64,000 bases of DNA, taken from Clostridiales bacterium. GTDB taxonomy: Bacteria > Bacillota > Clostridia > Lachnospirales > Lachnospiraceae. Made by a program: the position numbers and the translations under genes. The stretch covers positions 248,001 through 312,000 of the forward strand of contig DUNO01000001.1 of NCBI GenBank assembly GCA_012839295.1. Reading direction: 5' to 3'. Shown in pieces: positions 18,792-41,025 of the stretch; the first letter of the stretch is position 1, and each line of letters starts with the position of its first letter. The notes under the pieces were generated by a model. The model saw only the letters and a list, made by a program, of their open reading frames with translations, ran no database searches and was not told where the DNA came from.

Positions 18792-18928
18792 AACTAACGC
18801 GGTGAATCTGAGTGTCTATCTATCCATCTGGGCGCAGACCGGGCATCCCGTGGTTGCCTGCACTTGGCAATCACGGGATGTTAAAGGCAAGCACAGGTGG
18901 ATAGATAGACACTCAGATTCACCTCACA
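18792..18928. ncRNA. Structured intergenic element, copy 1 (covaries with 40877-41013)
   Basis: A perfect 25-bp outer stem (18801-18825 with 18899-18923) encloses a conserved core (GGGCGCAGACCGGG), an inner 15-bp hairpin with one G-U pair (18844-18858 with 18866-18880, loop TGCACTT) and the single-stranded segment TTAAAGGCAAG. Copy 2 has the same length, core and loop, while seven outer-stem positions and one inner-stem position differ with full compensation. Both copies lie between convergent genes and are bordered by AACTAACGC on the left and TCACA-CCTAAA on the right. It may be a non-coding RNA or a small mobile palindromic element; I cannot match it to a known family. Confidence 0.7.
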
Positions 18929-18979
18929 GCCTAAACTCACAGCCCAAACCCCTACTCATTTAATGTTCGAATCACTCTA

Positions 18980-19519
18980 TCACATCAACGCCTCATATAA
19001 CTTATCAACAGGCCTCGGAATAACCGCACATTCAACCATAAGCTCGCTGACAGCCTTCGCTGCGTTAATTGCCTCTGTTACAGCGCTGACATCACCGCTC
19101 ATAGTAACAAAGCCTTTTCCGCCGACAGCAAAGCCGGTCCGGATTTCAATCAGGTTTACATCCGCTGCCTTTGCCGCAGTATCTGCCGCAATAATAGCAG
19201 AGGCCACGGAATAAAATTCAATGACACCGATGGCTCCGGTGGTTGCTACCTGGGAGGTGCCGCTGATTGCAGGCATAAGCTGGTCACTGACATTTGGTAT
19301 GAATAATTTATCGACTAAGAATTCACCGGCAATTTCCTCGCCTGCCTTCATGGAGGCATTTACCGCACTGGTATTGCCGCCGACGATAACCATGTATTTT
19401 CCCGGGCATATGGTAGATGACCGGAGTAATTCAACGTCAGCCGCCTTTAACATATAATCGCAGGTTTCGATTCCTCTGGCTATACTTGATAGCTCTATCA
19501 TACAAACTGAATTTCCCAT
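18980..19519 (-). CDS. pduT: PduT-like tandem-BMC microcompartment shell protein with Fe-S pore cysteine
   Basis: A 179-aa shell protein made of two BMC domains (about 3-90 and 95-179), which would form pseudohexameric trimers in a bacterial microcompartment facet. The motif LLRSSTICPGK places a cysteine at residue 38, the position that ligates the central 4Fe-4S cluster of Salmonella PduT; this match supports the start at 19519, which also has GGAG 6 nt upstream. An in-frame start at 19588 lacks a ribosome-binding site. The C-terminal VIPRP is also PduT-like. It follows pduS and pduQ homologues, suggesting a role in passing electrons across the shell. Confidence 0.92.
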   Translation of the reverse strand: MGNSVCMIELSSIARGIETCDYMLKAADVELLRSSTICPGKYMVIVGGNTSAVNASMKAGEEIAGEFLVDKLFIPNVSDQLMPAISGTSQVATTGAIGVIEFYSVASAIIAADTAAKAADVNLIEIRTGFAVGGKGFVTMSGDVSAVTEAINAAKAVSELMVECAVIPRPVDKLYEALM

Positions 19520-19677
19520 TTCAAACTCCATTCCGCCGCCCAGCGGCAAATTAAATATTAGTGCTGCATCAGTGTAAATATCAGGCACTGAGTGGAAGAG
19601 AAACTTTCACGATACAGTATTAATGTACTGTCTCATTCATAATTAGACTAACAGCACTGCCTAAATGAACAGAACAC

Positions 19678-21027
19678 TTAGCTTACACGGATTCTGATAC
19701 CGGCAGGTGTCACCTCGCTCACAGTACCGTTTACACTGGCATGTATGTTGGTTGATAATCCCGTATCGTCGGCACGGGCAACCAGGTCACCGGCTGATAC
19801 CCTGTCCCCGGCAGCCTTTACCGCGATTGCAGGCTTTCCGATGTGCTGTGAGAAAGGAAGGAACACTTCGTCAGGCTTGAGGCCGATACAGACATGGGCG
19901 TGGAGTCCGTTATATTTCCCAAGGTTAAGCCTTGCAATGAGCCGGTCCGTTGGGACCTTGCTGAGGTCAACGGAGGATCTTACCTGGGGATTTAAATTTC
20001 TTTCAACAGTAATGCCTCTTTCGCGTAGCTTTCCTTTCATATATTGGTTTGCCCTTCTTGGGGACAGACCCATGGGGCAGGAGAACATCTCGCAGATTCC
20101 ACAGTCACAGCAATTGATCGCATCTCCGAAGCTTTTCTCGAATTCTTCCTGGGTTTCGATTTTGTCCTCCCGCCAAACATTCCTCATGACGAGGTGGGGC
20201 TTAATCCGATGGCCGATCTGGAATCTTGGACATAAATCCGTACACATCCTGCATTGGATACAGGCACTTCTGGTCTGGTGCTTAATGCGGCTGATGGAAA
20301 CCTCGGAGCGTTTAATTAAATAATGGTCTTTTGGCAATACGATAATATTTCCGGTGGTTTTAGTGACAAACTGCTGGTCGATGAGTTTGTCCTCCGCCAC
20401 AACACGCCCCATCATCGGTCCGCCCAAAATAATGGCATATTCACTGACGGTGGGGGAGGCAGCCTTGATACATTCCCTGATGGAGGTGCCGATGGGAACC
20501 TTTAGCATAACCGGTTCCTTTACCTCGCCGACCACAGAGAGGTATTTTTCCGTTGTCTTTTCTCCCTTTGTCACCGCGTTATAGATTCCGATTACAGTTC
20601 CCACATTGTCTACGACGGCGCCCACATCAATGGGGATGCCCCGTTCCGGTACGCATCTTCCGGTCACCTGCTGTACCATGATCTGCTCATCACCTGCCGG
20701 ATAGAAGGTCCTCATCTCAAAGATCTCGATAGCCGCACTGTTCTTTTCAATGGCAGCCTTTAGGGCGGCAATTTCATCCTTATATTTTCCCTTTAATGCG
20801 ATAACTGATTTCTTAGCCTCCAGATGCTCTGCTACCAGCATCACGCCCTTTACTAATTCATCTGCAAAGGCTCTGCATAAATATTTGTCAGTTTCAATTA
20901 AGGGCTCACACTCGGCAGCATTTACGATAAAATATTCTGCTTTTGTATTTAACTTAATATGGGTGGGGAACCCGGCGCCGCCGGCACCGACGATTCCCGC
21001 ATCCTTTATTGTTTCAATCAAATTCAT
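19678..21027 (-). CDS. pduS: PduS-like flavin / dual 4Fe-4S electron-transfer protein
   Basis: A 449-aa RnfC-related protein, reported as a cobalamin reductase in the Pdu pathway. It has a flavin/NADH-binding-like N-terminus (GIVGAGGAGFPTHIKL), an SLBB-like middle, then two cysteine clusters, CIQCRMCTDLCP and CCDCGICEMFSCP, for two 4Fe-4S centres, and a C-terminal biotinyl-lipoyl-like beta region. ATG 21027 has GGAG 7 nt upstream; an ATG at 21039 is in frame but lacks a site. Length matches PduS (about 450 aa). Its partner is the Fe-S shell protein PduT encoded next. Confidence 0.93.
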   Translation of the reverse strand: MNLIETIKDAGIVGAGGAGFPTHIKLNTKAEYFIVNAAECEPLIETDKYLCRAFADELVKGVMLVAEHLEAKKSVIALKGKYKDEIAALKAAIEKNSAAIEIFEMRTFYPAGDEQIMVQQVTGRCVPERGIPIDVGAVVDNVGTVIGIYNAVTKGEKTTEKYLSVVGEVKEPVMLKVPIGTSIRECIKAASPTVSEYAIILGGPMMGRVVAEDKLIDQQFVTKTTGNIIVLPKDHYLIKRSEVSISRIKHQTRSACIQCRMCTDLCPRFQIGHRIKPHLVMRNVWREDKIETQEEFEKSFGDAINCCDCGICEMFSCPMGLSPRRANQYMKGKLRERGITVERNLNPQVRSSVDLSKVPTDRLIARLNLGKYNGLHAHVCIGLKPDEVFLPFSQHIGKPAIAVKAAGDRVSAGDLVARADDTGLSTNIHASVNGTVSEVTPAGIRIRVS

Positions 21028-21078
21028 AGGCTTCTCCATTCATTATCAATCAAGGTTAATCAGTTACGGCAGCATAGC

Positions 21079-22212
21079 TCAGACCGCATACTTACCTTCG
21101 TATGCCCGGATAAAGAGTGTGGTCAGTTCTTCCTTCGTAACCTGTCTCGGGTTGCCGGCGGTACAGGGATCTGCATAGGCAGCCTCCACCAGCTCCGGCA
21201 GTACATCCAAAAAGTCCTGTTTATTTACACCCGCCGCTTTAATACTGGAGGGGATATTTAGCTTGGAAATGTAGTTTCTTAAGGCACGGACGAGATTCAT
21301 GGTACTCTGGCGCTCGTTGGTGCTGTCCAGCCAGATCAACCGTGCGATCTTGGCATAGCGCTTATTTGCCTCAGTCAGCTGGTCGTAGAGGCCTGCATTG
21401 TAGGATATTACGTAGGGCAGCAGGATTGCATTCGCCTTTCCGTGGGGAATGTGGAAATGTGCTCCCAGGGTGTGGGCCATGGAGTGGTTGATTCCGAGGC
21501 CGGAATTACTAAATGCCATTCCCGCAAGGCAGGAGGCATTATGTACCCTTTGCCGGAGAGTCACATCCTCAGGGTTTTCAAAAACCTGGATCAGGAATTT
21601 ATTGGCGAGCTTGATTGCCTTTTCCGCCAGGGCATCGGTAAAATCATTCCTCATATTACAGACAAAGGCCTCAATGGCATGGGTCAATACGTCCATCCCC
21701 GTATCGGCGGTTATGCTCCTGGGAACGGATTTTGTCAGCTCGGCATCAATGATGGCCATGTCCGGCAGCATGCTGTCATCCACCAGGGGATATTTAGTCT
21801 CTGTCTCCGGATCGGTGATTACGGAAAATTTGGTAACCTCTGAACCGGTCCCGCTGGTCGTTGGAATCGCGATAAATCTCAGCTTAACGGAGGCATCCTG
21901 CATCCGGGCAAAATAGATCATTCCCTTTGCCGCATCAATAGGAGAACCGCCGCCGAGGGCGACCACCAGCTCCGGCCTAAATTCTAAGATCAGCTTTACA
22001 CCCTTTACAACGGTAGCAATATCCGGGTTCGGCTTTACGTCTGAAAATATCTTGTATTCAGCTCCATTCAGGTGCTTTGTAATATATTTCGTTACTTCCT
22101 TCTCCACCATGAAGCGGTCGGTAACGATCAGAACCTTGCCGGCACCCCCAAAGGTATTATCATCCCCGGAGCCGATCATTATATCAGTCTTAATACTAAA
22201 AGAGCTATTCAT
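21079..22212 (-). CDS. pduQ: Iron-containing alcohol dehydrogenase (PduQ-like, microcompartment NAD recycling)
   Basis: A 377-aa group III Fe-dependent alcohol dehydrogenase. NAD-binding GGGSPIDAAKG is followed by metal ligands in TGMDVLTHAIEAF and in GLGINHSMAHTLGAHFHIPHG. In Pdu-type compartments this enzyme reduces the aldehyde and regenerates NAD inside the shell. The start is ATG 22212, with AAAGGAG 6 nt upstream; that site lies inside 31-bp tandem repeats able to form hairpins (see 22217-22287). It is the first gene of a pduQ-pduS-pduT operon under the AraC regulator upstream. Confidence 0.92.
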   Translation of the reverse strand: MNSSFSIKTDIMIGSGDDNTFGGAGKVLIVTDRFMVEKEVTKYITKHLNGAEYKIFSDVKPNPDIATVVKGVKLILEFRPELVVALGGGSPIDAAKGMIYFARMQDASVKLRFIAIPTTSGTGSEVTKFSVITDPETETKYPLVDDSMLPDMAIIDAELTKSVPRSITADTGMDVLTHAIEAFVCNMRNDFTDALAEKAIKLANKFLIQVFENPEDVTLRQRVHNASCLAGMAFSNSGLGINHSMAHTLGAHFHIPHGKANAILLPYVISYNAGLYDQLTEANKRYAKIARLIWLDSTNERQSTMNLVRALRNYISKLNIPSSIKAAGVNKQDFLDVLPELVEAAYADPCTAGNPRQVTKEELTTLFIRAYEGKYAV

Positions 22213-22216
22213 GAAT

Positions 22217-22287
22217 TCTCCTTTCAATCGTGGGAAAGGAGAATTCGTCTCCTTTCAATCGTGGGAAAGGAGAATTCGTCTCCTTTC
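22217..22287 (-). repeat. 31-bp tandem repeats covering the pduQ ribosome-binding site
   Basis: Two exact 31-bp units (22217-22247, 22248-22278) and a partial third. On the pduQ strand each unit carries CTCCTTTC followed, after CCACGATT, by GAAAGGAG. The unit next to the start forms a perfect 13-bp hairpin that buries the Shine-Dalgarno site and ends one base before the ATG. Confidence 0.85.
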
Positions 22288-22318
22288 GAATTCGGTAACA
22301 ATCAACATTGAAACCCAC

Positions 22319-22355
22319 ATAAAACAACATTTCGAATAGATATATGTTGTTTTAT
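22319..22355. promoter_or_regulatory. Perfect 12-bp inverted repeat in the pduQ leader (operator or araC terminator)
   Basis: ATAAAACAACAT (22319-22330) and its exact complement at 22344-22355 flank 13 nt. It lies just after a minus-strand TTGACA (22394-22389)/TATACT (22373-22368) pair with a short 15-nt spacer. The AAACAACA core also occurs at the regulator's own promoter region (23267-23296), which favours an operator; termination of the regulator gene is the alternative. Confidence 0.5.
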
Positions 22356-22403
22356 CTTTATTTATAAAGTATATCATATCCGCCCATTTGTCAAGTGAAC
22401 TTG

Positions 22404-23123
22404 TTATTTCTTTATATATTCAACGGGTGATAAAGCATAGTATTTCTTGAATACCCGGCTGAAGTAGGAGTAATTCTGATAGCCCAGCAGCTCGGCTATT
22501 TCGTTAAAATGGTAGACATTGCTTCTCATAAGCTGGATGGCGAATTCCAGCTTGGTTTTATGGATATAGTCAGTGAGGGTTTCACCCACCTCTTCCCTGA
22601 AGCGTTTGGACAGATAGCTGCGGTTTACACTGATGGCCTCAGCCACATCCTTAGCATATAGGAACTTGAATTTATTGTTGTGGATAAATTCGAGGGCCAT
22701 TTTTATTACCAGGGAATATTGCTTCATGGAATATTTCTTTATCGAGGCGAGGAGCTCTTCAAAAGCATTGATATTAATATCTGCAAGCTCGCCCTTATTA
22801 TGTGAGCGGGCAATTTTATAGAAGCAATTCTTTTTAATGGATTCCCCGATATCCTTTGGTAAGCCGTTTTTGATGGAAATCTCAGTCAGAGTGGAAACGG
22901 AATGGGCACAGTAAAGCTTCAAAACCTCAAGGTCTTCGCTTATGACGAGCTGCAGATCCTTGATTTGCTCCGCAATTTCTGCGATTTTATAAACCTGTGC
23001 CGGATCTCCTGAGGAAAGGGAGTCCTGGAAAGCCAGCATGAGCTTGGTGCTTTTTTCGGAGAAATCCGTGTCGTATTCGGAACGGATGGACAGGTCCTGG
23101 GAAATAGAATGGTCAAAATTCAT
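22404..23123 (-). CDS. AraC-family transcriptional regulator of the pdu-like module
   Basis: A 239-aa regulator with a C-terminal AraC DNA-binding domain of two helix-turn-helix units: AKDVAEAISVNRSYLSKRFR and FNEIAELLGYQNYSYFSRVF, ending in PVEYIKK. The N-terminal 130 residues are helical and carry no sensor domain I can name. AGGAGG precedes the ATG. It lies directly upstream of pduQ in the same direction, a common place for activators of microcompartment operons. Its inducer is unknown but should relate to the compartment substrate. Confidence 0.88.
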   Translation of the reverse strand: MNFDHSISQDLSIRSEYDTDFSEKSTKLMLAFQDSLSSGDPAQVYKIAEIAEQIKDLQLVISEDLEVLKLYCAHSVSTLTEISIKNGLPKDIGESIKKNCFYKIARSHNKGELADININAFEELLASIKKYSMKQYSLVIKMALEFIHNNKFKFLYAKDVAEAISVNRSYLSKRFREEVGETLTDYIHKTKLEFAIQLMRSNVYHFNEIAELLGYQNYSYFSRVFKKYYALSPVEYIKK

Positions 23124-23266
23124 GGGATACCTCCTGGAAAAATGGGCGTTACTACTTCAATTGTAAACAAACCGGGGCAAACTCAATTGAAATGGGCTTC
23201 CTTGGGAATGCCTTAAAAAGCTTTGAGAATACCTATTAAACATATTGTAACATGAAATTTAGATAC

Positions 23267-23296
23267 AAACAACAATCAAGCAATAAAAACAACAAT
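23267..23296. promoter_or_regulatory. Direct repeats in the araC/GH3 intergenic region (candidate AraC site)
   Basis: AAACAACAAT occurs at 23267-23276 and again at 23287-23296, exactly 20 bp apart, two helical turns, as expected for an AraC-family dimer site. The rest of 23124-23451 carries A/T-rich sequence with GATAAAAT boxes but no clear promoter. Confidence 0.45.
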
Positions 23297-23451
23297 TGTA
23301 TAACTTCTGGACAAAATACTCTGATAAAATGATAAAATGAAAAATCTTGAATGCCCCTGGAAGAAAGCAATTACGGTTCCAAAATGGTTTGGGGCGCTAT
23401 AGCCGGCAAACAATCCATGAAATAATCCATAAAAAGAAGGGAGAATGCAAT

Positions 23452-25917
23452 ATGCTTTACAAGGATCCAAACAAAACAATTCAAGAAAGGGTGGAGGATT
23501 TACTGGGAAGGATGACCTTAAAGGAAAAGGTAGCCCAGCTCTCCTGCACAATGACAACCGGAAGGGCGGACAATATTGAGAGCATGAGAGGGGAGCTGGA
23601 AAACGGTATCGGTACCATCAGCTATCTGAACAGCTCACTTTCCGGCGATAATGAAAAAGACATGAATAACATCAAAGCGATCCAGAGGCATCTGATGGAG
23701 GAGACGAGGCTGGGAATCCCGGCGCTGATCCATAATGAAGGAATTGCGGGAGCACAGATACCTGGGGCAACAACCTTTCCCCAATCCTTAAATGCGGCAG
23801 CCACCTGGGAACCGGAGCTGGCATACAAAATGGGAGAGGTGGTCCGCAGGCAGATAAAGGCCTTTGGCATCCATGCTGTCCACTCTCCTTTGTTTGACCT
23901 TGGCCGGGATCCAAGATGGGGAAGGATTGGTGAGACCTACGGCGAAGATCCCTATCTGGTGGCCAGGATGGGAACCGCATATGTAAAGGGAATACAGGGT
24001 AACCATGAGGTTATGGCTACGGCAAAGCATTTTGTCGGATATGGAAATGCAGAAGGTGGGAGAAATGGCGGGGAACAGCAGATCGGGAACCGGAAGCTGC
24101 TTGATACCTATTGCTTTCCCTTTGAAGCAGCAATCCAGGAAGCCGGTGTTATGGGTGTCATGAACAGCTATGGTATCTTAAACGAGGAGGCGGTATCCAC
24201 CTCAAAACGGCTTCTGACAGAGGTGCTAAGGGACAAGCTGGGCTTTGAGGGGGTGACAGTGGCAGATTACGGCAGCATAAGCCATGCCTTCGCAAGATAC
24301 CGGGTGGCGGAAACCAAAAAGGACACGGCAATCCTGGCTATAAAAGCAGGGATGGATGTGGAGCAGCCCCAGGGCACCTGTTACCGGTATTTAGAAGAGG
24401 CCGTAGAAGCAGGGGAGCTTGGGATGGAATATATCGACCGTTCCGTTAGGCGGGTATTGGAGACGAAATTTAAGCTGGGCTTGTTTGAAAACCCATATCA
24501 GGAGGGGGATTTTTTTGAGGAGATAAAGCGGCCGCAATATGCGGAGCTTTCCCAGGAAATCGCAGAAAAGTCCATTGTCCTGGTGAAAAATGAGGATCAG
24601 GCCCTGCCACTGTCCGGCGATGGCAAGCTTAAGATAGCGTTAATCGGCCCTTCCTCCGATGTAAAGGCGAATTTCTTCGGAGGCTACTCCTCCGTCAGCA
24701 CGGCCAGCACAACCAGCCGCGACTTTGACCGCTCCGAGGACGACAATTTCATTAAAATGGCATATCAGGCAATGATTACGGAATATAAGGATGGATTGAA
24801 GGCCTACGGGATAGAATTTGAAGACCAGCCGACCCCGGAGCAGAAGCAGGTGATTTTAGCAATGCTGAAGCAGCACCGGTCAGGCTCTGATAAGGCATAC
24901 AAGTCACAGGATGATTTTATGGAAAAATACTATCCGGATTGTAAAACAGTCAAGGAGGCTATGGAAGAGGCCTTTGGAAAGGAGAACATCCTCCATGCAA
25001 GGGGCTGCAATACCCGGGATATGCTGGAGGGAGGAATGGAAGCGGTAATCTCTGCCGTAGGGCAGGCGGACGTCGTCATTGCCGTATTAGGCGGAAGGGA
25101 AAGCATGACTGACCCGGAAGCAACCTGTGGTGAAAATAAGGATAACAGCAATATCAACCTGGAGCAGCACCAGCTGGATATGATGGCGGAGGTATTCAAG
25201 CTTAATAAACCGGTAATATCGGTTATCGTAGATGGAAGGCCTTTGGCAGCGCCGGAAATCAATGATAACAGTAAGGCGGTCCTTTATGCCTGGCTGCCGG
25301 CTCAAAACGGAGCACAGGCAATCGCCAATGTCCTGACCGGCAGGGTAAACCCCAGTGGAAAGCTCCCGGTGACGGTGTTAAAGGAGAAGGGGCAGATTCC
25401 TATGTATTACAGCCGGCTGCCCTTTATGGCGGAGCTTGACGAATGGTCTGAGTATATCGGCCAGGATAAGAATGCCCCAATGTATCCCTTCGGACATGGG
25501 CTTAGTTATACGAAGTTCGAATATTCAGGCTTGGTGATGGAGGATGCTGTTGAAGCAACAGGCAAATTAAAGCTTAGCTTCAAGATTAAGAATACGGGAG
25601 CCTGCGCCGGGGATGAAATTGCCCAGGTCTATATCCGTGACTGTGTCGGCAGCGTTGCCAGGCCAACAAAGCAGCTGGTTGGATTTGTACGGCTGGGATT
25701 GGAGCCTATGGAGGAAAAGCAGCTTTCTTTTGAAATTGATATGAGACAGCTGGCCTTCCATGACCTGAACATGGAGCAGGTGGTGGAGCCGGGAAATATG
25801 GAGGTATACATCGGAGCCTCCTCAGAGGATATCCGATTACAGGGACAGTTTATAATCACCGGTGAAAAGCTTATAGTGGAGAGAAAAGTATTTGCTTCAA
25901 AGGTAATCACAGGGTAA
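23452..25917 (+). CDS. Glycoside hydrolase family 3 beta-glycosidase, cytoplasmic
   Basis: An 821-aa GH3 enzyme that releases sugars from the non-reducing ends of beta-linked oligosaccharides. The barrel domain shows DPRWGRIGETYGEDP, ATAKHFVGYGNAEGGRNGG and the nucleophile D272 in VTVADYGSISH. The second domain contains VLVKNEDQALPL and the C-terminus is a fibronectin III-like domain (GDEIAQVYIRD, RPTKQLVGF). There is no signal peptide, so substrate must be imported. ATG 23452 is chosen (GGGAG 8 nt upstream); upstream in-frame codons lack a site. Specificity (glucosidase or xylosidase) cannot be read from the sequence. Confidence 0.95.
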   Translation: MLYKDPNKTIQERVEDLLGRMTLKEKVAQLSCTMTTGRADNIESMRGELENGIGTISYLNSSLSGDNEKDMNNIKAIQRHLMEETRLGIPALIHNEGIAGAQIPGATTFPQSLNAAATWEPELAYKMGEVVRRQIKAFGIHAVHSPLFDLGRDPRWGRIGETYGEDPYLVARMGTAYVKGIQGNHEVMATAKHFVGYGNAEGGRNGGEQQIGNRKLLDTYCFPFEAAIQEAGVMGVMNSYGILNEEAVSTSKRLLTEVLRDKLGFEGVTVADYGSISHAFARYRVAETKKDTAILAIKAGMDVEQPQGTCYRYLEEAVEAGELGMEYIDRSVRRVLETKFKLGLFENPYQEGDFFEEIKRPQYAELSQEIAEKSIVLVKNEDQALPLSGDGKLKIALIGPSSDVKANFFGGYSSVSTASTTSRDFDRSEDDNFIKMAYQAMITEYKDGLKAYGIEFEDQPTPEQKQVILAMLKQHRSGSDKAYKSQDDFMEKYYPDCKTVKEAMEEAFGKENILHARGCNTRDMLEGGMEAVISAVGQADVVIAVLGGRESMTDPEATCGENKDNSNINLEQHQLDMMAEVFKLNKPVISVIVDGRPLAAPEINDNSKAVLYAWLPAQNGAQAIANVLTGRVNPSGKLPVTVLKEKGQIPMYYSRLPFMAELDEWSEYIGQDKNAPMYPFGHGLSYTKFEYSGLVMEDAVEATGKLKLSFKIKNTGACAGDEIAQVYIRDCVGSVARPTKQLVGFVRLGLEPMEEKQLSFEIDMRQLAFHDLNMEQVVEPGNMEVYIGASSEDIRLQGQFIITGEKLIVERKVFASKVITG

Positions 25918-25929
25918 AATTATAGAATT

Positions 25930-25966
25930 CCGCCACAACCATCACAATTGGCGATGGTTGTGGCGG
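25930..25966. terminator. Hairpin between convergent GH3 and AraC genes
   Basis: A perfect 14-bp stem (25930-25943 with 25953-25966) and 9-nt loop lies between two convergent genes. It lacks a long T-run but its position fits a shared bidirectional terminator. Confidence 0.6.
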
Positions 25967-26013
25967 GCATAAAAGGCAGTCCCCATTCCTGTCTTATCAG
26001 TTCCCGGATCACA

Positions 26014-27282: not shown

Positions 27283-27301
27283 GGATATCACCTCTTTCAG
27301 A

Positions 27302-27329
27302 TAAGTTATATAAGTTATAATAAGTTATA
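27302..27329. promoter_or_regulatory. Three direct TAAGTTATA repeats (candidate AraC operator)
   Basis: TAAGTTATA occurs at 27302, 27311 and 27321, about one helical turn apart, just upstream of the AraC gene start and about 110 nt from the divergent GH3 gene. Confidence 0.4.
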
Positions 27330-27375
27330 AGCTCCGGAAGTATGAATATATACTCTAATCTACGAATTTATATTA

Positions 27376-27402
27376 TTGATATTTTCATATACAGTGTATA
27401 AT
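27376..27402 (+). promoter_or_regulatory. Predicted promoter of the second GH3 gene
   Basis: TATAAT at 27397-27402 has TTGATA at 27376-27381 (15-nt spacer) or TATTGA at 27374 (17-nt spacer) upstream. The ATG follows at 27440. Confidence 0.45.
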
Positions 27403-27439
27403 AATCTTAGCATTTTGTAAAGGAGAAGGAGGTATTGCA

Positions 27440-29188: not shown

Positions 29189-29249
29189 AGGCGGCTGGAT
29201 CGCGGAGTGCCTGCCGTTTCACATGTAATTATATAAAATTAAAAAGAGA

Positions 29250-29303: not shown

Positions 29304-29330
29304 GCCCTTTTGTAAAGGGGATTATGTATG

Positions 29331-30758: not shown

Positions 30759-30788
30759 AAATCCTCCTCATTACTATAATTCAGTCCA

Positions 30789-31817: not shown

Positions 31818-32070
31818 TTTTTTACTCCAATGTAAATGTATTTTATAATAGTTGGTATGCTAAAGTATTAGTAAATTGATGCTGTCCTGTGAATAATTAA
31901 GGGGATTTGCATCTTTTTTATGATAGCATAAATTGGTAATAATATAAAGTGTATTTTGGATATACGTTTCAATAACTATATTTACGATAGGAATTATAAC
32001 AAAGAATTTCGATGCATGGAATATACAAAATGACTAAAAATATTGCTGGTAAATTAGATATAATAGCATA

Positions 32071-32099
32071 TTGACGGCAAAAATAAATGCGAATATAAT
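32071..32099 (+). promoter_or_regulatory. Predicted promoter of the sulfatase/ABC operon
   Basis: TTGACG (32071-32076) and TATAAT (32094-32099) are spaced by 17 nt. A TAGCATA copy (32064-32070) abuts the -35 box and may belong to the LacI operator. The first ATG follows at 32142. Confidence 0.65.
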
Positions 32100-32141
32100 G
32101 GTTATACGATTAAACAAAATTGATCAGGAAAGGAAATGACA

Positions 32142-33533: not shown

Positions 33534-33546
33534 GAGGGAAAGCGAG

Positions 33547-35034
33547 ATGAAAGCGATTATGGTAATGTTTGATTCTTTAAATAAGAATTTTTTGCCTCCC
33601 TATGGATGTGATTGGGTTCATGCTCCCAACTTTTCCCGGCTGGCAGAGCATGCGGTGACCTTTAAAAGGGCTTACGCGGGAAGCCTGCCCTGTATGCCGG
33701 CCCGCAGGGAATTGCATACCGGTAGGTTGAATTTTCTTCATAGAAGCTGGTCGCCGCTGGAGCCTTTTGATGATTCGGCACCTGAAATCCTTAAAAATGC
33801 AGGAATCCACACCCATTTAGTCAGTGATCATGGGCATTACTGGGAGGATGGCGGAGCAACTTACCATACCAGGTATTCTACCTGGGAAGGCGTCCGGGGA
33901 CAGGAGGGGGATCCGTGGAAGGGTAATCTTTCACCATGTATTCAGCCATCAGGAAGGATGGAAGATGAAAATACGGAAATCCCTGCATTTAAACAAAAGC
34001 TTTACCGGCAGGATGCGATAAACCGCAATCACCGCCAAAGCAGCGGTAATAGCTGTCAGCGTCTGACCTTTGACAAGGGTCTGGAATTTATTGAGACAAA
34101 CCAGGCTTATGACAACTGGTTTGTCCAAATAGAATCCTTTGACCCACATGAACCTTTCTTTACCTATGAAGAATACCTGGAGATGTATCACAAGCCCGAT
34201 ATCGGAAAGGACATAGACTGGCCTCCTTATGGACGTGTCCATGAATCGGAGGAAGAGGTTGAGTACATCCGCACAAAATATGCGGCGTTACTTTCCATGT
34301 GTGATGAAAATCTTGGAAGAGTGCTTGATAAGATGGATCAATATGATATGTGGAAGGACACCATGCTTATCGTAAATACGGATCACGGATATCTTCTGGG
34401 AGAGCACGGATGGTGGGCCAAAAATATTATGCCATGCTACAACGAAATTGCTAATATTCCATTATTTATATGGGATCCAAGGTGCAAAGCAAAGGATGAA
34501 TACCGGGAAAGCCTTGTACAGACCATTGATCTGGCTCCTACGCTTCTGGAGTATTTTGGATGTGCAATTCCGGGGGATATGACAGGTAAATCCTTAGCGG
34601 ATACCATTGCAAAGGATGTACCCATAAGAGAGTTTGCAATGTTTGGATATCATGGAAATCAGTTGAACATAACGGATGGAAGATATGTATATATGCAGGA
34701 TGCTGTAAACCGGGAGGTTCCGCTTTATGAATATACCTTAATGCCAAATCATATGAACTGCAGAATGGGAGCCGCCCTTGAACATGCAACGCTGGCGAAG
34801 CCCTTCAAATTCACCAAGAATATGCCCTTACTTAAGATCCCTGCCGCAAAAGGCACGGACACCATAACCGGTTCCTATGGATCCCAGCTGTTTGATTTGG
34901 AAATGGATCCAGGACAATTACATCCGATCAAGGATGAGCAACAGGAAAAGAGGCTGCGTAAGGCGATGAAGGAGCTGATGAAGGGGCACGATGCCCCGGA
35001 GGAATTATTCCGGCGTATGGGCATGACAGATTAA
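33547..35034 (+). CDS. Sulfatase 3 (Cys-type, cytoplasmic)
   Basis: A 495-aa sulfatase. The motif is C49-M-P-A-R53 in GSLPCMPARRELHTGR. Metal-site residues appear in MVMFDSLNKNFLPPYG (D9) and VNTDHGYLLGEHGWW; SDHGHYWEDGG and FDPHEPF supply further active-site positions. No signal peptide. ATG 33547 is chosen (GGAGGG at 33532-33537); the gene begins 13 nt after sulfatase 2. Its sequence is clearly different from sulfatases 1 and 2, suggesting another sulfate position or sugar. Confidence 0.92.
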   Translation: MKAIMVMFDSLNKNFLPPYGCDWVHAPNFSRLAEHAVTFKRAYAGSLPCMPARRELHTGRLNFLHRSWSPLEPFDDSAPEILKNAGIHTHLVSDHGHYWEDGGATYHTRYSTWEGVRGQEGDPWKGNLSPCIQPSGRMEDENTEIPAFKQKLYRQDAINRNHRQSSGNSCQRLTFDKGLEFIETNQAYDNWFVQIESFDPHEPFFTYEEYLEMYHKPDIGKDIDWPPYGRVHESEEEVEYIRTKYAALLSMCDENLGRVLDKMDQYDMWKDTMLIVNTDHGYLLGEHGWWAKNIMPCYNEIANIPLFIWDPRCKAKDEYRESLVQTIDLAPTLLEYFGCAIPGDMTGKSLADTIAKDVPIREFAMFGYHGNQLNITDGRYVYMQDAVNREVPLYEYTLMPNHMNCRMGAALEHATLAKPFKFTKNMPLLKIPAAKGTDTITGSYGSQLFDLEMDPGQLHPIKDEQQEKRLRKAMKELMKGHDAPEELFRRMGMTD

Positions 35035-35210
35035 GGGCACACGGTATCCATAGTTATAGATTTCCCTTCGCTTTAGAGGATGATACGGTCATAGCTATTT
35101 GCCAAAGCGCAGAGGAATTTATATAAATGTAAAGCACGGATCCAATAAATTCAATGGCTTCAGGGCTTTTACAAAATGCATTTAAAAATCATAATAAGGA
35201 GAGGGAAATA

Positions 35211-36815
35211 ATGAAGAAAAAAATTACGAGATGGGTATGTACAGTTATGGCAGGTTGTATGTTGATCGGGTTACTCGCAGGATGTACAAGCGGCAGCAGC
35301 CCGAAGGAGACCGGTACCCCGGATGCAAATTCCGATAACAGCACGGCCACGGACAAAGCAGTAACAAGCATTACGATTGGAACGTCTGATGCCTGGGATA
35401 CATTGACTCCGTTCCGTACAACACAGAGCCAAATGTCATCAATGGTAAGATATATTTATGACAGGCTCGCATATCAGACTGCTGATAACAGGTATATCCC
35501 CCAGGTGGCAAAAAGCTGGGAGGTTGAAGACGATGGTGTTACATGGAATGTTGAGATTTTTGATTATGTAGCAGACTCTGAAGGGAATCATATTACGGCA
35601 AGTGATATTGTATGGATGCTTGAAGAGTCTATGGCACAGGGACTGAAGCCCTGCTACAATAAAATTGCCAGCGTAGAGCAGACAGGAGATTACTCCTTTA
35701 AGGTTGTTATGAAACAAGATATAGTGAACTCCTTTGAGCTTGTCCTTGTAAGCACCTATGTGGTATCCCAGAAGGCATATGAAGCAAGTACAGATGACTT
35801 TGCTGCTAAAACAATATCCACATCTCCCTATCTTGTAACGGATTTTGTATCCGGCTCCCATATTACCTTTAAGAAGAGGGATGATTATTGGCAGAAGGAA
35901 GAATTGATTGATAAAGCCCAAGCCAATAATCTGGAGACGATTACTTATAAAATTATCAAAGAGGCTTCCCAGCAGCAGGTTGCCCTTGAAACAGGAACGG
36001 TTGATGCCTTTGAGAACATTAGTGCAACGGTTGTACCTGCATTTGAAGGTAATGCTTCCTATGAAACTGTCCAATTCCCCAGCAGTAACGGCATTCAATT
36101 ATTCTATTCCGGTGATGAAAGCAGGGTCATAGCAAAGGATGAAGATCTTTGCCGTGCAATCTCTTATGCCATTGATGCGGAAGGACTGGTAGCCGGAGTA
36201 TATAATGGATACGCTAAAGTAATGCATGATGCGGCTGTTGAGAGCGTTGTTGGGTATCTGGAAAAATGGAATGATGAGGAATATTTCCCCTATGACGTGG
36301 ATAAGGCAAAGGAATATCTGGCAAAATCCAATTACAAGGGTGAGGAGCTGGAGCTGCTTTGTATGTCTGATTCTACATCACAGCGTATCGCCCAAATGAT
36401 TCAAAATTATCTGCTGGCAGTTGATATTAAGCTAAAATTAAACATTGTGGATGCAGCGTTGTTTTCCGCATCCCGTTTTGATGGCGCACAATACGATATG
36501 ATTATTATAAATGCAGGTGCAGGATCCTTGCCGGCATTTTGGTCAAACCGCTTTGACAGCACTGCATATGAAAAAGGTGATGGTACGGCACGCAATGATG
36601 AGGTTTTAACAGCAATGCTGTATTCTACATGGACCAATGAAGGCTTTACAGAAGAAAATATCGATGCGGTCCGCCGGTACATAATTGACCATGCATATGC
36701 GTATGGTATGTGTCTTCCTACAAGCTGCAGCATCTATGCTAAGACCCTTTCCATTCAAGAGATCGTCAGCCTCCCCGCCGGTACCCTTGATTTTGCGGCC
36801 TGCGTTTATCAGTAA
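35211..36815 (+). CDS. ABC importer substrate-binding lipoprotein (SBP_bac_5, oligopeptide/dipeptide type)
   Basis: A 534-aa lipoprotein: MKKKITRWVCTV, hydrophobic core, lipobox LLAGC with acylated C25, then an S/T/D-rich linker. The body (TPFRTTQSQMSSMVRYIYDR, VAKSWEVEDDGVTWNV) is family-5 solute-binding protein, which binds peptides, nickel or, in some members, oligosaccharides. The operon partners are sulfatases, so sulfated oligosaccharides or glycopeptides are likely cargo. AAGGAG sets the start. The 176 nt upstream (35035-35210) hold no clear promoter. Confidence 0.92.
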   Translation: MKKKITRWVCTVMAGCMLIGLLAGCTSGSSPKETGTPDANSDNSTATDKAVTSITIGTSDAWDTLTPFRTTQSQMSSMVRYIYDRLAYQTADNRYIPQVAKSWEVEDDGVTWNVEIFDYVADSEGNHITASDIVWMLEESMAQGLKPCYNKIASVEQTGDYSFKVVMKQDIVNSFELVLVSTYVVSQKAYEASTDDFAAKTISTSPYLVTDFVSGSHITFKKRDDYWQKEELIDKAQANNLETITYKIIKEASQQQVALETGTVDAFENISATVVPAFEGNASYETVQFPSSNGIQLFYSGDESRVIAKDEDLCRAISYAIDAEGLVAGVYNGYAKVMHDAAVESVVGYLEKWNDEEYFPYDVDKAKEYLAKSNYKGEELELLCMSDSTSQRIAQMIQNYLLAVDIKLKLNIVDAALFSASRFDGAQYDMIIINAGAGSLPAFWSNRFDSTAYEKGDGTARNDEVLTAMLYSTWTNEGFTEENIDAVRRYIIDHAYAYGMCLPTSCSIYAKTLSIQEIVSLPAGTLDFAACVYQ

Positions 36816-36875
36816 ACGATAATGTGGAAGCAATTGATCGGATATCGCTCCATGATGGAAGGAAGGAACTAGATA

Positions 36876-37835
36876 ATGTTAAGATATATTTTAAAGAGAA
36901 TTCTATGGATGATACCCATAGTACTTGGTGTGGCAATTATCGTATTTACATTAATGTCTTTTTGTCCTGGTGACCCGGCCACGATCATCCTTGGTTCAAC
37001 TGCAACAGAGAGCGACCTCACGGCGATGCGGGAGGAGCTTGGGCTAAATAAGACATACATAGAGAGATTAGGAACCTTCCTATATGATACCTTTATCAGG
37101 TTTGATTTCGGAGAATCCTGGATAACACGGACAAGTATTAAAGCGGCTATAATAGAACGGTTGCCGAGAACGATGCTCTTGACCATAGCGACCTTGGGCC
37201 TTTCGACTCTCATCGGTATTTCATTAGGGATTATGGCAGCCATTAATCAGGGGAACTGGAAGGATAATTTCTGTATGGCCTTTGCCTTAATAGGTGTCTC
37301 TGTTCCGGATTTTTGGCTGGCGTTGCTTCTGATCCTCCTGTTCTCAGTGAAGTTGGGGTGGCTTCCTGCGATGGGTATCGGTGGACTGCAGTATTATATC
37401 TTGCCGGCAATGGCCGGGTGTATGGGCGGCATAGCTGCCCTGGCCCGGCAGACACGGTCCAGTATGCTGGATGTAATACGTGCAGATTATATTACAACGG
37501 CCAGATCCAAGGGCGTTCCGGAATTCAGGGTTATTACAAGGCATGCGTTAAAGAATGCATTTATCCCGATCATCACTATTATTGGCACACATTTCGGTAA
37601 AATGCTGGGAGGAGCAATGGTTATCGAAACTATTTTTGCGATCCCGGGTATGGGCTCCTATATTGTAACAGCTGTAAATTCCCGGGATTATCCTGTGGTT
37701 CAGGTTGGCGCTGTCTTTTTAGCTATTGTATTTAGCATATGCATGTTAGGTGTGGACTTGATTTATGCGGCAGTAGATCCTAGAATCAGGGCCCAGTATG
37801 GAAAAAAGAGTAGGAAGGTGAAGGTAAATGCTTAA
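36876..37835 (+). CDS. ABC importer permease (DppB/OppB-like)
   Basis: A 319-aa inner-membrane permease with six predicted helices, starting MLRYILKRILWMIPIVLGVA, followed by a large external loop with GDPA and the cytoplasmic EAA-type loop ARSKGVPEFRVITRHALKNA that couples to the ATPases. GGAAGGA precedes the ATG. It overlaps the next permease gene by 8 nt, showing translational coupling. Confidence 0.94.
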   Translation: MLRYILKRILWMIPIVLGVAIIVFTLMSFCPGDPATIILGSTATESDLTAMREELGLNKTYIERLGTFLYDTFIRFDFGESWITRTSIKAAIIERLPRTMLLTIATLGLSTLIGISLGIMAAINQGNWKDNFCMAFALIGVSVPDFWLALLLILLFSVKLGWLPAMGIGGLQYYILPAMAGCMGGIAALARQTRSSMLDVIRADYITTARSKGVPEFRVITRHALKNAFIPIITIIGTHFGKMLGGAMVIETIFAIPGMGSYIVTAVNSRDYPVVQVGAVFLAIVFSICMLGVDLIYAAVDPRIRAQYGKKSRKVKVNA

Positions 37836-38712
37836 TACGATGGCAGGAAAAACACAAATTAAGATAAAAAAGAAGTCTGAATTCATGAGAACCTTAAAGC
37901 AGATGAGCTATAATAAGCTGGCCGTTTTTGGTGCTATTGTGTTTGCAATTGAGTTAATACTTGTTATATTGGCTCCGCTCATTGCACCTTATGGGTATGC
38001 AGAGATGGATATGGCTGCGGCATATCAGCCGCCTTCCTGGGCACATCTGTGCGGAACAGATGATCTGGGAAGGGATATCTTTAGCCGTTTGCTATATGGC
38101 GGACGCTATTCAATCACAATGGGTATTTTCAGTATCGGAATTTCAGTCATGCTGGGTATTATCATCGGCTCTACCGCAGGCTATTTCGGTGGGAAGGTTG
38201 ATAATATTATTATGAGGTTTTTGGATATCATCCAATCTCTTCCGGGCATGCTGCTTACCATCGTAATTTCAGCGGTTCTCGGTTCCGGATATATCAATAC
38301 AATCCTGTCTCTTTCGGTAAATGGTATTCCCGGACAGGCAAGAATGCTGCGTGCGCAGATGATGAGGGTCAGGGGAAGTGAATACATAGAGGCAGCAGAA
38401 TCCATCAATTGCAGCAAATTCAGAATTATTGCGAAGCATCTGATTCCGAATTCATTTTCCCCGCTGATTGTACAAGCAACCATGGGCGTCGCAAATATGA
38501 TTATCATGGCAGCCGGCTTGAGCTTTATCGGTCTTGGAGTCCAGCCTCCTGCTTCCGAATGGGGAGCGATGCTTTCCGGTTCCAGGCAGTTCATCAGATC
38601 CAGTCCACATATGGTATTCTTTCCGGGGCTTGCCATTGCAATCACAATTCTCGCCCTCAACCTGATGGGAGACGGACTGCGTGATGCACTGGATCCGAAA
38701 CTGAAACGCTAA
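37828..38712 (+). CDS. ABC importer permease (DppC/OppC-like)
   Basis: A 294-aa permease with six predicted helices. The N-terminal region carries LAVFGAIVFAIELILVILAP and HLCGTDDLGRDIFSRLLYG, the hallmark DxLGRDxxSR of DppC proteins; the coupling loop is IEAAESINCSKFRIIAKHLI. The start overlaps the previous gene by 8 nt and AAGGTGAAGG lies upstream. It forms the heterodimeric channel with the DppB-like protein. Confidence 0.94.
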   Translation: MLNTMAGKTQIKIKKKSEFMRTLKQMSYNKLAVFGAIVFAIELILVILAPLIAPYGYAEMDMAAAYQPPSWAHLCGTDDLGRDIFSRLLYGGRYSITMGIFSIGISVMLGIIIGSTAGYFGGKVDNIIMRFLDIIQSLPGMLLTIVISAVLGSGYINTILSLSVNGIPGQARMLRAQMMRVRGSEYIEAAESINCSKFRIIAKHLIPNSFSPLIVQATMGVANMIIMAAGLSFIGLGVQPPASEWGAMLSGSRQFIRSSPHMVFFPGLAIAITILALNLMGDGLRDALDPKLKR

Positions 38713-38730
38713 GGAAAGGAGGCAGAGTAT

Positions 38731-39732
38731 ATGTCGGATGAAATAAAAGAAAGCATGCCATTTCTGGAAGTAAAGAATTTAATTGTTGAATACTTTACAA
38801 GTGAACAGACGGTTCATGCGGTCAATGGTGTTTCCTTCAAACTGGAAAAAGGAAAGACATTAGGCCTCGTTGGTGAGACCGGTGCAGGAAAAACATCAAT
38901 TGCAAAAGCCATCCTTCGGATATTGCCCGATGTCGGAGCAAGGATTGCCAAAGGGGAAGTATGGCTGGCAGATGAAAATATCACGCGTATATCGGAAGAG
39001 GAAATGAGAAAAATCCGTGGGAAAAAGATATCTATGATTTTCCAGGATCCTATGACGGCGCTTAATCCGGTTCAACGGGTAGGTGACCAGATTGCCGAGG
39101 TAGTATCCCTGCACAATAGCGGAACAAAGGAGAGCTTCAAGAAAAGGGCAGAAGAAATGCTTGAAATGGTCGGGATACAGAAGGAACGCTATGGGGATTA
39201 CCCACACCAGTTTTCCGGCGGAATGAAGCAGCGGGTGGTGATAGCAATTGCGCTGGCATGTAATCCGGAGCTTCTGTTGGCGGATGAGCCAACAACAGCC
39301 CTTGACGTAACGATACAGGCCCAGGTTCTGAAGTTAATCGATAACCTGAAAGAAAAGCTCAATACATCCATGGTATTAATTACCCATGACATGGGTGTGG
39401 TGGCAACGCATTGTGATGATGTTGCAGTTGTTTATGCGGGAAATATTGTTGAATATGGAAGTAAAGAGCAGGTATTCGATCATCCGGCCCATCCATATAC
39501 CATAGGGCTGTTCGGAGCTATCCCAAATCTGGGCAGGGACGAAGAGTGGTTACATCCCATTGAGGGACTTCCGCCGGATCCGTCGGATTTGCCGGAAGGC
39601 TGTTCCTTCCATCCCCGCTGTAATTATACAACAGAGGAATGTAAGGCTGGAACGATAGACATGTTGGCTACGCCTGATGGGCACCAATGCCGTTGCATCC
39701 ATATGGATAGAGTCTTGAAAGGAGAGGTTTAG
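38731..39732 (+). CDS. ABC importer ATPase (DppD/OppD-like)
   Basis: A 333-aa ATPase: Walker A GETGAGKTS, signature FSGGMKQRV, Walker B LLADEPTTALD, and switch His in ITHDMG. The C-terminal oligopeptide-specific extension contains GCSFHPRCNYTTEEC. GGAGG lies upstream. It pairs with the next gene as the second of two ATPases, as usual in this importer class. Confidence 0.95.
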   Translation: MSDEIKESMPFLEVKNLIVEYFTSEQTVHAVNGVSFKLEKGKTLGLVGETGAGKTSIAKAILRILPDVGARIAKGEVWLADENITRISEEEMRKIRGKKISMIFQDPMTALNPVQRVGDQIAEVVSLHNSGTKESFKKRAEEMLEMVGIQKERYGDYPHQFSGGMKQRVVIAIALACNPELLLADEPTTALDVTIQAQVLKLIDNLKEKLNTSMVLITHDMGVVATHCDDVAVVYAGNIVEYGSKEQVFDHPAHPYTIGLFGAIPNLGRDEEWLHPIEGLPPDPSDLPEGCSFHPRCNYTTEECKAGTIDMLATPDGHQCRCIHMDRVLKGEV

Positions 39733-39733
39733 C

Positions 39734-40684
39734 ATGCGACCAGTAATCGAAGTAAAAAACCTCAAAAAATATTTCCCGGTTGCAAACGGTGTGCTCCATG
39801 CGGTTGATGATGTGTCATTATCCATAGGAAGAGGAAAGACGTTGGGTGTTGTAGGGGAATCAGGCTGTGGAAAATCAACACTGGGCAGAACGATTATTCA
39901 TTTGCAGGAGCATACCTCCGGAGAAATTTTTTTACATGGAGATGATATCTCTAATTTAAAAGGAAAGGAATTGCGGAAAGTCCGCGAGAAAATGCAGATT
40001 ATTTTCCAGGATCCATATTCGTCAATCGATCCCAGGAAAACAGTGGATGCAACGATCCGTGAGCCACTGCAGGTATCAAAAAGGTATAAGAGAAATGAAA
40101 TTGACGATGTAACCACAGAGCTGATGGAGCTGGTAGGCATTGATAACCGCCTGAGAATGTCTTACCCTCATGAGCTTGACGGCGGGCGCAGGCAGCGGGT
40201 AGGAATTGCCAGGGCGCTTGCACTGAATCCTGATTTTGTTGTATGTGATGAGCCGGTATCTGCCCTTGACGTTTCTATCCAGGCACAGGTATTAAACCTA
40301 CTGAAAAAGCTTCAGCAGCAGAGAGGGCTGACTTATATGTTTGTTACCCATAACTTGTCGGTAGTCAAGCATATTTCAGATGATATTTGTGTCATGTATC
40401 TTGGGCAGGTAGTCGAATTATGTCCGTCTAAGGAACTTTTCAAAAATCCTCTGCACCCGTACACCAAAGCATTACTCTCAGCCATTCCCTCCATCGATAT
40501 TCATAATCCGAATAAGCCTGAAATTTTAAAAGGAGAGCTAACATCCCCAATTAACCCAAAGCCGGGATGCCGGTTTGCTTCAAGATGTAACTTTGCAACA
40601 GAAGCCTGTAAACAGCCCCAAAAGCTGCAGGAAATTTCCTCAGGGCATTTTGCCGCATGCTGCAGGGTAAGAGAGATACAGTGA
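39734..40684 (+). CDS. ABC importer ATPase (DppF/OppF-like)
   Basis: A 316-aa ATPase: Walker A GESGCGKST, Walker B VCDEPVSALD and the switch His in VTHNLS. The signature reads LDGGRRQRV in place of the usual LSGGQ, a substitution of the signature serine. The C-terminal extension has GCRFASRCNFATEAC. It starts 1 nt after the previous stop. Last gene of the operon, followed by a terminator. Confidence 0.95.
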   Translation: MRPVIEVKNLKKYFPVANGVLHAVDDVSLSIGRGKTLGVVGESGCGKSTLGRTIIHLQEHTSGEIFLHGDDISNLKGKELRKVREKMQIIFQDPYSSIDPRKTVDATIREPLQVSKRYKRNEIDDVTTELMELVGIDNRLRMSYPHELDGGRRQRVGIARALALNPDFVVCDEPVSALDVSIQAQVLNLLKKLQQQRGLTYMFVTHNLSVVKHISDDICVMYLGQVVELCPSKELFKNPLHPYTKALLSAIPSIDIHNPNKPEILKGELTSPINPKPGCRFASRCNFATEACKQPQKLQEISSGHFAACCRVREIQ

Positions 40685-40771
40685 ATATAAAGAGAAATAC
40701 ATAATGATCATTTTCCCGGTACCACGAAAATGATAAGCTAAAAGAATATAATCCAAAGGCTTAAACCCAAA

Positions 40772-40818
40772 GAAACCTGTTGTTGCACTATAACTAACGC
40801 AACAGCAGGTTTCCTTTT
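40772..40818 (+). terminator. Intrinsic terminator of the sulfatase/ABC operon
   Basis: Arms 40772-40786 and 40799-40813 pair over 15 bp with one G-T pair, followed by CTTTT. The loop includes AACTAACGC, the same 9-mer that borders the structured element at 40877. Confidence 0.7.
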
Positions 40819-40876
40819 CGTAATAAAACTCCTATAAAACAATATAATTCCACCCAACAGAAGGCTCCATACATTA

Positions 40877-41013
40877 AACTAACGCGGAGAATCGGAGGGG
40901 CTCCATATCCATATGGGCGCAGACCGGGCCTCCTGTGGTTGCCTGCACTTGGCAATCACGGGAGGTTAAAGGCAAGCCCAGGTGGATATGGAGCCCCTCC
41001 GATTCTCCTCACA
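40877..41013. ncRNA. Structured intergenic element, copy 2
   Basis: Same length and layout as 18792-18928: perfect 25-bp outer stem (40886-40910 with 40984-41008), invariant core GGGCGCAGACCGGGC, and an inner hairpin with loop TGCACTT (40929-40943 with 40951-40965, two G-U pairs). The outer stem here extends inward with TGGGC/GCCCA. It ends 12 nt before the stop of the minus-strand ATPase gene, again between convergent genes. Confidence 0.7.
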
Positions 41014-41025
41014 ACCTAAATCCCA

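Follow-up and report, generated by a model that had tools for sequence, protein, structure and literature searches.

A MITE-like palindromic repeat in a Lachnospiraceae genome with outer-stem covariation that fits replication template switching

Introduction

The closest described counterparts of the repeat reported here are the bcr1-bcr3 elements of the Bacillus cereus group, which are MITE-like in structure and function, high-copy and intergenic, and are often located in UTRs or operon intergenic regions; bcr1 is 147-167 bp long and foldable (PMC3446304, PMC2267715). Compared through these published descriptions, the present repeat resembles them as a MITE-like, high-copy intergenic repeat but occurs in another host family, and the 3' orientation and arm-coupling statistics given below belong to the present repeat. 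ERIC/NEMIS/RUP-type repeats are dispersed, intergenic and roughly 100-160 bp long, with ERIC forming a single long stem-loop (PMC2267715). They share the size class and the form of a dispersed intergenic palindrome, but they are found in other hosts, and in the present repeat a conserved core is enclosed by a long stem of its own, with the terminal inverted repeats (TIRs) lying beyond that stem. REP/REPIN repeats are linked to RAYT transposases and are likewise dispersed extragenic palindromes. In contrast to these, the genome studied here is without a Y1 transposase, the repeat is associated with 6-7-nt target duplications, and its unit exceeds the 20-40 bp stated for REPs (PMC3733652) several-fold.

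Where covariation is perfect, a functional RNA is usually considered strongly supported. Template switching (quasipalindrome mutation), a mutational process and not an element, is reported to homogenise the arms of inverted repeats, to invert spacers and, in the bacterial data cited, to favour transversions (PMC8604942); it has also been reported to maintain RNA stems (PMC8794818). Arm homogenisation, spacer inversion and a preference for transversions are also the points of likeness with the present repeat, for which the process is inferred from dispersed natural copies. With more than 100 copies in two genomes, both causes of covariation can be compared inside one molecule. The family thereby offers a natural setting in which to test template switching as an origin of compensatory changes, and it calls for caution when RNAs are sought by covariation among palindromic repeats.

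Results

The window analysed was a 64,000-nt stretch of contig DUNO01000001.1 (assembly GCA_012839295.1). A preliminary description had reported two equal-length structured copies at 18792-18928 and 40877-41013, and both were located there. As modelled, the structured unit spans 143 nt, at 18793-18935 for copy 1 (+ strand, E 2.3e-39, G000:C33:266793-266935) and 40878-41020 for copy 2 (+ strand, E 2.0e-37, G000:C33:288878-289020), both copies being part of the alignment behind the covariance model used (R1). The left and right outer arms, at 18801-18826 and 18898-18923 in copy 1 and at 40886-40911 and 40983-41008 in copy 2 (all + strand), form perfect inverted repeats as had been described, but of 26 bp and not the 25 bp given; an inverted-repeat search extended them to 33 nt at 94%. 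The inner hairpin of copy 1 (18844-18880, + strand), with 15-nt arms and a 7-nt loop, was identified by inverted-repeat search and folding, and that of copy 2 (40929-40965, + strand) by folding, with coordinates set by register with copy 1. All seven reported outer-arm differences between the copies are compensated on the opposite arm, and six of the seven are transversions by our reading. The inner hairpin carries the A-T to C-G exchange and the new G-U (U-G) pair already noted. The loop is identical in both copies, while the core, previously called identical, is nearly so, with two unmatched differences (ATCTGG/ATATGG and AAGCAC/AAGCCC).

The right arm of copy 1 is followed by a CTCACAGCCTAAA unit and then a second degenerate unit (18924-18950, + strand), read from the sequence. 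Decayed TIRs were observed by eye at the left end of copy 1 (GATTCG..., 18766-18784, + strand), in the position where relatives have GATTCGAGTGTCANAAGTC ends, and at its right end (18955-18973, GATTCG on the - strand). Copy 2 has a decayed left TIR (AATTCC..., 40846-40864, + strand, by eye); no right terminal repeat was seen for this copy, and a gene end is located 5 nt away. Both copies sit between convergent genes, as first described, namely SelR-domain and BMC-domain genes for copy 1 and two ABC ATPase genes for copy 2, with the stops of the BMC-domain gene (18980-19588, - strand) and of an ABC ATPase gene (41026-41820, - strand) just to the right of the respective copy. Genome-wide, this convergent setting was found for only 11 of 66 copies in the same (own) genome and for 5 of 50 copies in a sister genome.

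BLAST returned at least 64 matches in the own genome, made up of 40 places and 24 antisense matches of the same palindromes (best 40 of 116 candidates scored), and the covariance model returned at least 128 raw matches (best 150 of 2203 candidates scored). Merging of the model matches gave at least 83 places, of which 64 were whole (one weak) and 19 were cut by contig ends. For statistical analysis, 115 own and 65 sister model matches were filtered to 66 and 50 copies, removing duplicates and matches whose core motif was absent from its expected position; the latter were mostly double hits on the antisense strand, plus some copies at contig ends. Matches were present in 9 of 33 other genomes of the genus, with the members of the genus having between 0 and 86 raw model matches each, and a single weak match was found among 199 genomes of the wider family. 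Plasmid and phage records gave no match. A scan of contigs with a loose pattern gave at least 96 stretches, of which 80 were rescored with the model together with 10 viral loci and L057; all matches among these except L057 lay in the Herbinix MAG JAQZBD, and the 16 other stretches included one more Herbinix contig. Viral contigs had no match to the exact pattern and 10 to the loose pattern, none of which scored with the model. The preliminary description could assign no known family, and at the gathering threshold Rfam likewise had no match in the window; at a relaxed threshold, five loci gave only miRNA hairpin matches far below the cut-off. The repeat family is apparently unrecorded, being absent from every library searched.

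Many scattered copies with variable flanks, proposed earlier as a sign favouring mobility, were indeed found. In relatives the unit is bounded by 19-nt TIRs (GATTCGAGTGTCANAAGTC), and we collected 38 end pairs, mainly in relatives, a count that includes L063 three times and L074 twice as well as some pairs holding no core or an unrelated interior. Exact 6-7-nt target duplications were observed in 12 of the 38 pairs, with 0.27 expected from mispaired flanks, while in 26 pairs no duplication reached 6 nt; the duplications come from end pairs mainly in relatives, the ends of the window copies being decayed. By reading, the core was contained in 8 of the 12 duplicated pairs (L065, L070, L071, L075, L081, L113, L280:117, L292), and two elements without the core were noted by eye (L299, L290). 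Conserved synteny, the earlier expectation for an RNA gene, did not hold, with no insertion common to both species in any of five syntenic blocks shared with the sister species (4-9 reciprocal-best proteins each, 75-99% identical). Clean empty sites were found for L105, L106 and L142:9018. In a sixth block (L021/L142) the element is located in the same intergenic region in both species, in opposite orientation. The repeat shows features by which a MITE is recognised: TIRs, target duplication, short length without a transposase gene, dispersal and differing insertion sites. The TIRs are poorly conserved in the own genome, which is odd for an active transposon, and many own-genome copies, with their decayed ends, are probably no longer mobile.

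A search for a partner found no match to a Y1 (RAYT-type) transposase in the own genome (97.9% complete), and across the genus the terminal repeats bounded neither any of 18 Y1 loci nor any of 30 ISL3 loci (best similarity 14/19). We rejected Y1 and ISL3 transposases as the autonomous partner since their loci are not bounded by the element's ends, and the lack of a transposase carrying these ends among them counts against the MITE reading. No transposase was recognised by eye in the ORFs beside ten end-repeat loci (one a pair).

The two window copies folded with z-scores of -13.5 and -13.1 on the + strand and -11.3 and -9.7 on the - strand, and none of 200 shuffles folded as well in each of the four folds (two copies, two strands). 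Covariation was also found in a larger alignment, as the earlier reading of the two copies had anticipated. In the model alignment of 30 copies, a picked set taken as the best of 40 BLAST places, 98.6% of cells pair, compared with 90.1% in column shuffles and 24-40% with slid partners, and two-sided changes were observed at 19 pairs, a value reached in none of 500 shuffles.

We then compared the two stems of the same molecules. A total of 62 own and 50 sister copies entered the pair statistics (leaving out L094, L096 and every row having at least 20 gaps), pair columns with more than 20% wobble were excluded, and changes were counted over 27 own and 23 sister independent nearest-copy pairs with up to 28 differences. 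Two-sided and one-sided changes numbered 135 and 117 in the outer stem, compared with 7 and 45 in the inner hairpin (Fisher 4e-8), and the two-sided changes of the outer stem comprised 81 transversional and 54 transitional cases. An inverted core was observed in L094 and L096 (2 of 66 own copies, 0 of 50 sister copies). Counting against the reading favoured below are the lack of core inversion among the sister copies and the equal divergence of inner hairpin and outer stem in the sister genome (0.23 each). The best-supported explanation is that template switching keeps the arms perfect by using one as the template for the other, and most of the 'compensated' changes would then be single DNA events. 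The outer-stem covariation is thus best read as fitting replication template switching and mostly not as proof of an RNA gene. Covariation in the family is strong but largely arm-coupled, with a G-U bias remaining on top.

This bias was measured as 98 G-U to 30 A-C single mismatches on the + strand (p 1.3e-9), divided into 56:14 at G-C pairs and 42:16 at A-U pairs, an excess that template switching alone does not predict. Mean pairwise identity among 58 own copies was 0.82 for the unit and 0.49 and 0.40 for the flanks (shuffled, 0.35 and 0.34), and conservation is higher in the unpaired core than in the flanks and ends of the element. RNA energy was lower on the + than on the - strand in 57 of 60 own copies (60 of the 66 were taken in) and 49 of 50 sister copies, which are not independent owing to shared ancestry. 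From the G-U bias and core conservation we infer that one folded strand is still under selection. This + strand runs antisense to the gene upstream. As a candidate + strand promoter at the left end of the element, TATACT was seen by eye in some of the copies listed but is not conserved among them.

Of 64 own copies, 48 had a gene stop within 200 nt on the right and 9 on the left (7 on both sides); of 50 sister copies, 33 had one on the right and 7 on the left (2 on both sides). Same-direction contexts had the favoured over the other orientation in 38 vs 4 cases (p 6e-8) and 28 vs 7 cases (p 5e-4), respectively. Statistically, copies are thus shown to prefer positions immediately 3' of genes and one of the two orientations. 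As causes of this orientation, the direction of the gene and that of replication could not be told apart (9 vs 5 discordant cases). GC skew on the element's + strand was negative for 58 of 64 own copies, many of whose loci are only 3 kb, and for 35 of 50 sister copies.

Discussion

We favour, at a probability of about 0.65, a MITE-like repeat with arms kept by template switching and added selection on the + strand fold and core. Such an element would be non-autonomous and mostly ~160-210 nt long, and would combine TIRs with a long perfect stem and a conserved core that contains the inner hairpin. A transposase, resident now or formerly, would have recognised the terminal repeats, and the target duplications point to one that cuts double strands. 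Template switching during replication would copy arm onto arm and now and then invert the core, while selection would keep the + strand foldable and the core sequence intact, that strand probably being recognised as folded RNA or single-stranded DNA. Only tentatively do we suggest that, at dozens of loci, the core of this mobile repeat may have undergone domestication into a signal behind genes, strand-specific and acting as folded RNA or single-stranded DNA, while template switching, and not point mutation followed by selection, would keep the stem perfect.

The preliminary description had proposed a non-coding RNA, with a homogenised mobile palindrome as the alternative. The alternative fits better, given the dispersal, the ends with their duplications, the unshared insertions, the transversion-rich two-arm changes and the core inversion; what stands of the RNA claim is the conserved core and the G-U over A-C excess on one strand, set against scattered copies, target duplications, coupled arms and unshared insertions. 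A functional RNA family, acting in trans or as a 3' antisense RNA, in which compensatory substitutions were selected and a useful RNA was duplicated to give the many copies, would account for the near-complete pairing and two-sided changes beyond all shuffles, for the G-U bias and conserved unpaired core, and for the lower + strand energies of the non-independent copies. We nevertheless consider it quite unlikely. Two-arm transversions outnumber transitions although only transitions can pass via G-U, one-sided changes prevail in the inner hairpin of these molecules, and neither the TIRs and target duplications, nor five blocks sharing no insertion, nor the lack of an Rfam match suit such a family. 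At the other extreme, the TIRs and target duplications, the range of raw matches within the genus and the elements without a core are as expected of a purely selfish MITE under no selection after insertion, in which core likeness reflects recent spread or short-tract gene conversion. This appears doubtful, as the flanks have decayed towards the shuffled baseline and the unit of the same copies has not, and the G-U bias would call for selection or for some unusual asymmetry of mutation.

The position of gene stops, mostly to the right of copies, and the orientation bias of same-direction contexts in both genomes would also suit a host-domesticated 3'-end element, whose - strand hairpin in the upstream mRNA would protect or end the transcript. 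However, both the mismatch counts and the folding energies speak for the opposite strand, and no T-run was seen by reading directly after the - strand hairpin in the window copies and others listed; with gene and replication direction also inseparable, we regard this role as unlikely. Position behind genes, together with a favoured strand complementary to the coding strand of the gene, would also agree with a recombination site resembling integron attC or REPINs that works in the form of folded single-stranded DNA, but the copies are dispersed over many contigs and not arrayed, the own genome has no Y1 transposase, and target duplications are present, leaving this reading very improbable.

A recurrent neighbour gene was looked for and rejected: among 403 flanking ORFs, the most recurrent neighbour, transporter permeases by reading, occurred at 4 loci. 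Separately, 19 of the family's matches in this assembly fall at the ends of contigs.

Copies and distribution

The preliminary description reported two hairpins with fully compensated stems in the window, and this was confirmed: the arms of copy 1 (18793-18935) and copy 2 (40878-41020) pair perfectly over 26 bp and differ at seven matched positions. It also called their cores identical, but the near-core sequence differs at two unmatched places as well. A covariance model search of Lachnospiraceae genomes, the check proposed there, found many dispersed copies in the window's source genome and matches in 10 of 34 genomes of the genus (source genome included), with 2 to 86 raw matches each; G228, which matches the Herbinix sp. 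MAG JAQZBD (Lachnospiraceae) and is hereafter the sister genome, was the richest of the relatives. BLAST with copy 1 against the source genome (40 of 116 candidates scored) gave at least 64 matches: 40 places, with the same palindromes matched a further 24 times in antisense. The model, built from 30 copies, gave at least 128 raw matches there (150 of 2203 candidates scored), which merged into at least 83 places, 64 of them whole (including a weak one at C2:22583, E 1.8e-5). Contig ends truncate the other 19, and two of those pieces may be the two halves of a single copy. The contigs concerned include C12, C22, C25, C29, C32, C41, C46 and C64, and from these cuts the repeat probably breaks assemblies.

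Two hundred genomes sampled from the wider family were searched under stricter filters, at the cost of weak matches; apart from the source genome, they showed a single weak match, in another genus. Searches of Rfam and of phage and plasmid records gave no match to the element, and no paper on this repeat family was found by host or type in the open-access literature.

Element structure and mobility

In relatives the unit ends in GATTCGAGTGTCANAAGTC, inverted on the two sides. Exact 6- or 7-nt duplications flanked 12 of 38 such end pairs (L063 counted three times and L074 twice), where mispaired flanks predicted 0.27, and by eye the core was present in 8 of the 12. From the ends inward, a spacer is followed by a stem of roughly 26-33 bp and then by the core with its inner hairpin. 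Among the matches listed, the core reads GCAGACCGG...TAAAGGCAAG, the inner hairpin differs from subfamily to subfamily, and one sister subfamily carries an extra hairpin; the elements at L299 and L290 have lost the core. The end repeats have decayed in the source genome, where 58 copies had a mean identity of 0.82 over the 143-nt unit, falling to 0.49 and 0.40 for the flanks (shuffled flanks, 0.35 and 0.34). Right of the stem, 2-4 degenerate tandem copies of CTCACAGCCTAAAC were observed at L003, L125, L085, L095 and L027. Two elements of 272 and 310 nt in another genome, G223 (L281, L291), have similar terminal repeats and a 5- or 7-nt duplication around an unrelated interior (CTTCGTCAATTTGCACAA...), and several MITE families may therefore share one transposase.

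The source and sister genomes were compared over five blocks, each made up of 4-9 reciprocal-best proteins (75-99% identical). Each block contained the element in both genomes, in none at the same place. Clean empty sites were found for L105 and L106 in the sister genome and for L142:9018 in the source genome; the remaining alignments were less clean. One intergenic region holds an element in both genomes (L021:1503-1645, source; L142:10156-10315, sister), in opposite orientation and at different distances from the shared flank. These are read as two insertions, possibly independent, with an inversion as a possible alternative.

Apparently these MITE-like palindromes, with their conserved core, form a new repeat family, here likened to known repeats by description. 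Closest in kind are bcr1-bcr3 of Bacillus cereus, MITE-like and UTR-associated according to PMC3446304 and PMC2267715, followed by ERIC-like repeats. A REPIN/RAYT identity was rejected because the source genome has no Y1 transposase match.

Covariation, orientation and selection

The preliminary description favoured a non-coding RNA on the strength of the compensated stems, with a mobile palindrome of homogenised arms as its main alternative. Over independent nearest-copy pairs (27 source, 23 sister), two-sided versus one-sided changes numbered 135 versus 117 in the outer stem and 7 versus 45 in the inner hairpin (p 4e-8). Eighty-one of the two-sided outer-stem changes were transversional and 54 transitional; a route through G-U steps is open to transitions only. 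Between copies 1 and 2, six of the seven matched arm differences were transversions by eye, a hint that G-U intermediates were not passed through. The core was inverted relative to its flanks in 2 of 66 source copies (L094:10001-10143, L096:10001-10143) and 0 of 50 sister copies, and the two cases are evidence for flipping between arms.

Template switching between inverted repeats has arm homogenisation and spacer inversion among its outcomes, according to PMC8604942; bacterial data cited there show transversions favoured, and its own yeast data show transitions outnumbering transversions. PMC8794818 proposes that template switching maintains RNA stems. From the pairwise comparison of copies, made without a tree, we conclude that the outer-stem covariation is mostly arm copying, as in the homogenised palindrome, and that the conspicuous covariation of the family arises mainly at the DNA level.

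The excess of G-U (98) over A-C (30) among one-sided mismatches on the + (GCAGACC) strand is not accounted for by arm copying. The excess held in G-C pairs (56:14) and A-U pairs (42:16) alike, so a single deamination bias is insufficient. The + strand folded better in 57 of 60 source and 49 of 50 sister copies under RNA parameters; DNA parameters gave 51 of 60 and 50 of 50, respectively. The copies share ancestry. Divergence in the unpaired core, outer stem and inner stem was 9%, 27% and 11% (source) and 15%, 23% and 23% (sister). Given the G-U excess, + strand folding and core divergence, it is likely that the folded + strand and the core are under some selection, and to that extent the RNA reading keeps some support.

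Copies lie mostly in one orientation behind genes, with neighbours taken from a simple ORF rule that may misassign individual genes. Of the 63 source copies whose right-hand gene is known, 50 have that gene directed towards the element, as do 34 of 49 in the sister genome; the median distance on this side was 32 and 33 nt. Within 200 nt, 48 of 64 source and 33 of 50 sister copies had a stop codon to their right, and 9 and 7 had one to their left. Between co-directional neighbours the - strand was the sense strand in 38 versus 4 (source) and 28 versus 7 (sister) cases; the + strand is antisense to the upstream gene, so the folded strand under likely selection is not simply its 3' UTR. With gene direction set against replication direction as the cause of orientation, discordant cases were 9 versus 5.

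Also in the window, AACTAACGC appears once more at 40785-40800, in the loop of an apparent terminator hairpin on the left side of copy 2; this is probably coincidental. A T-box leader (RF00230, 96.4 bits) lies at 51089-51342 on the + strand.
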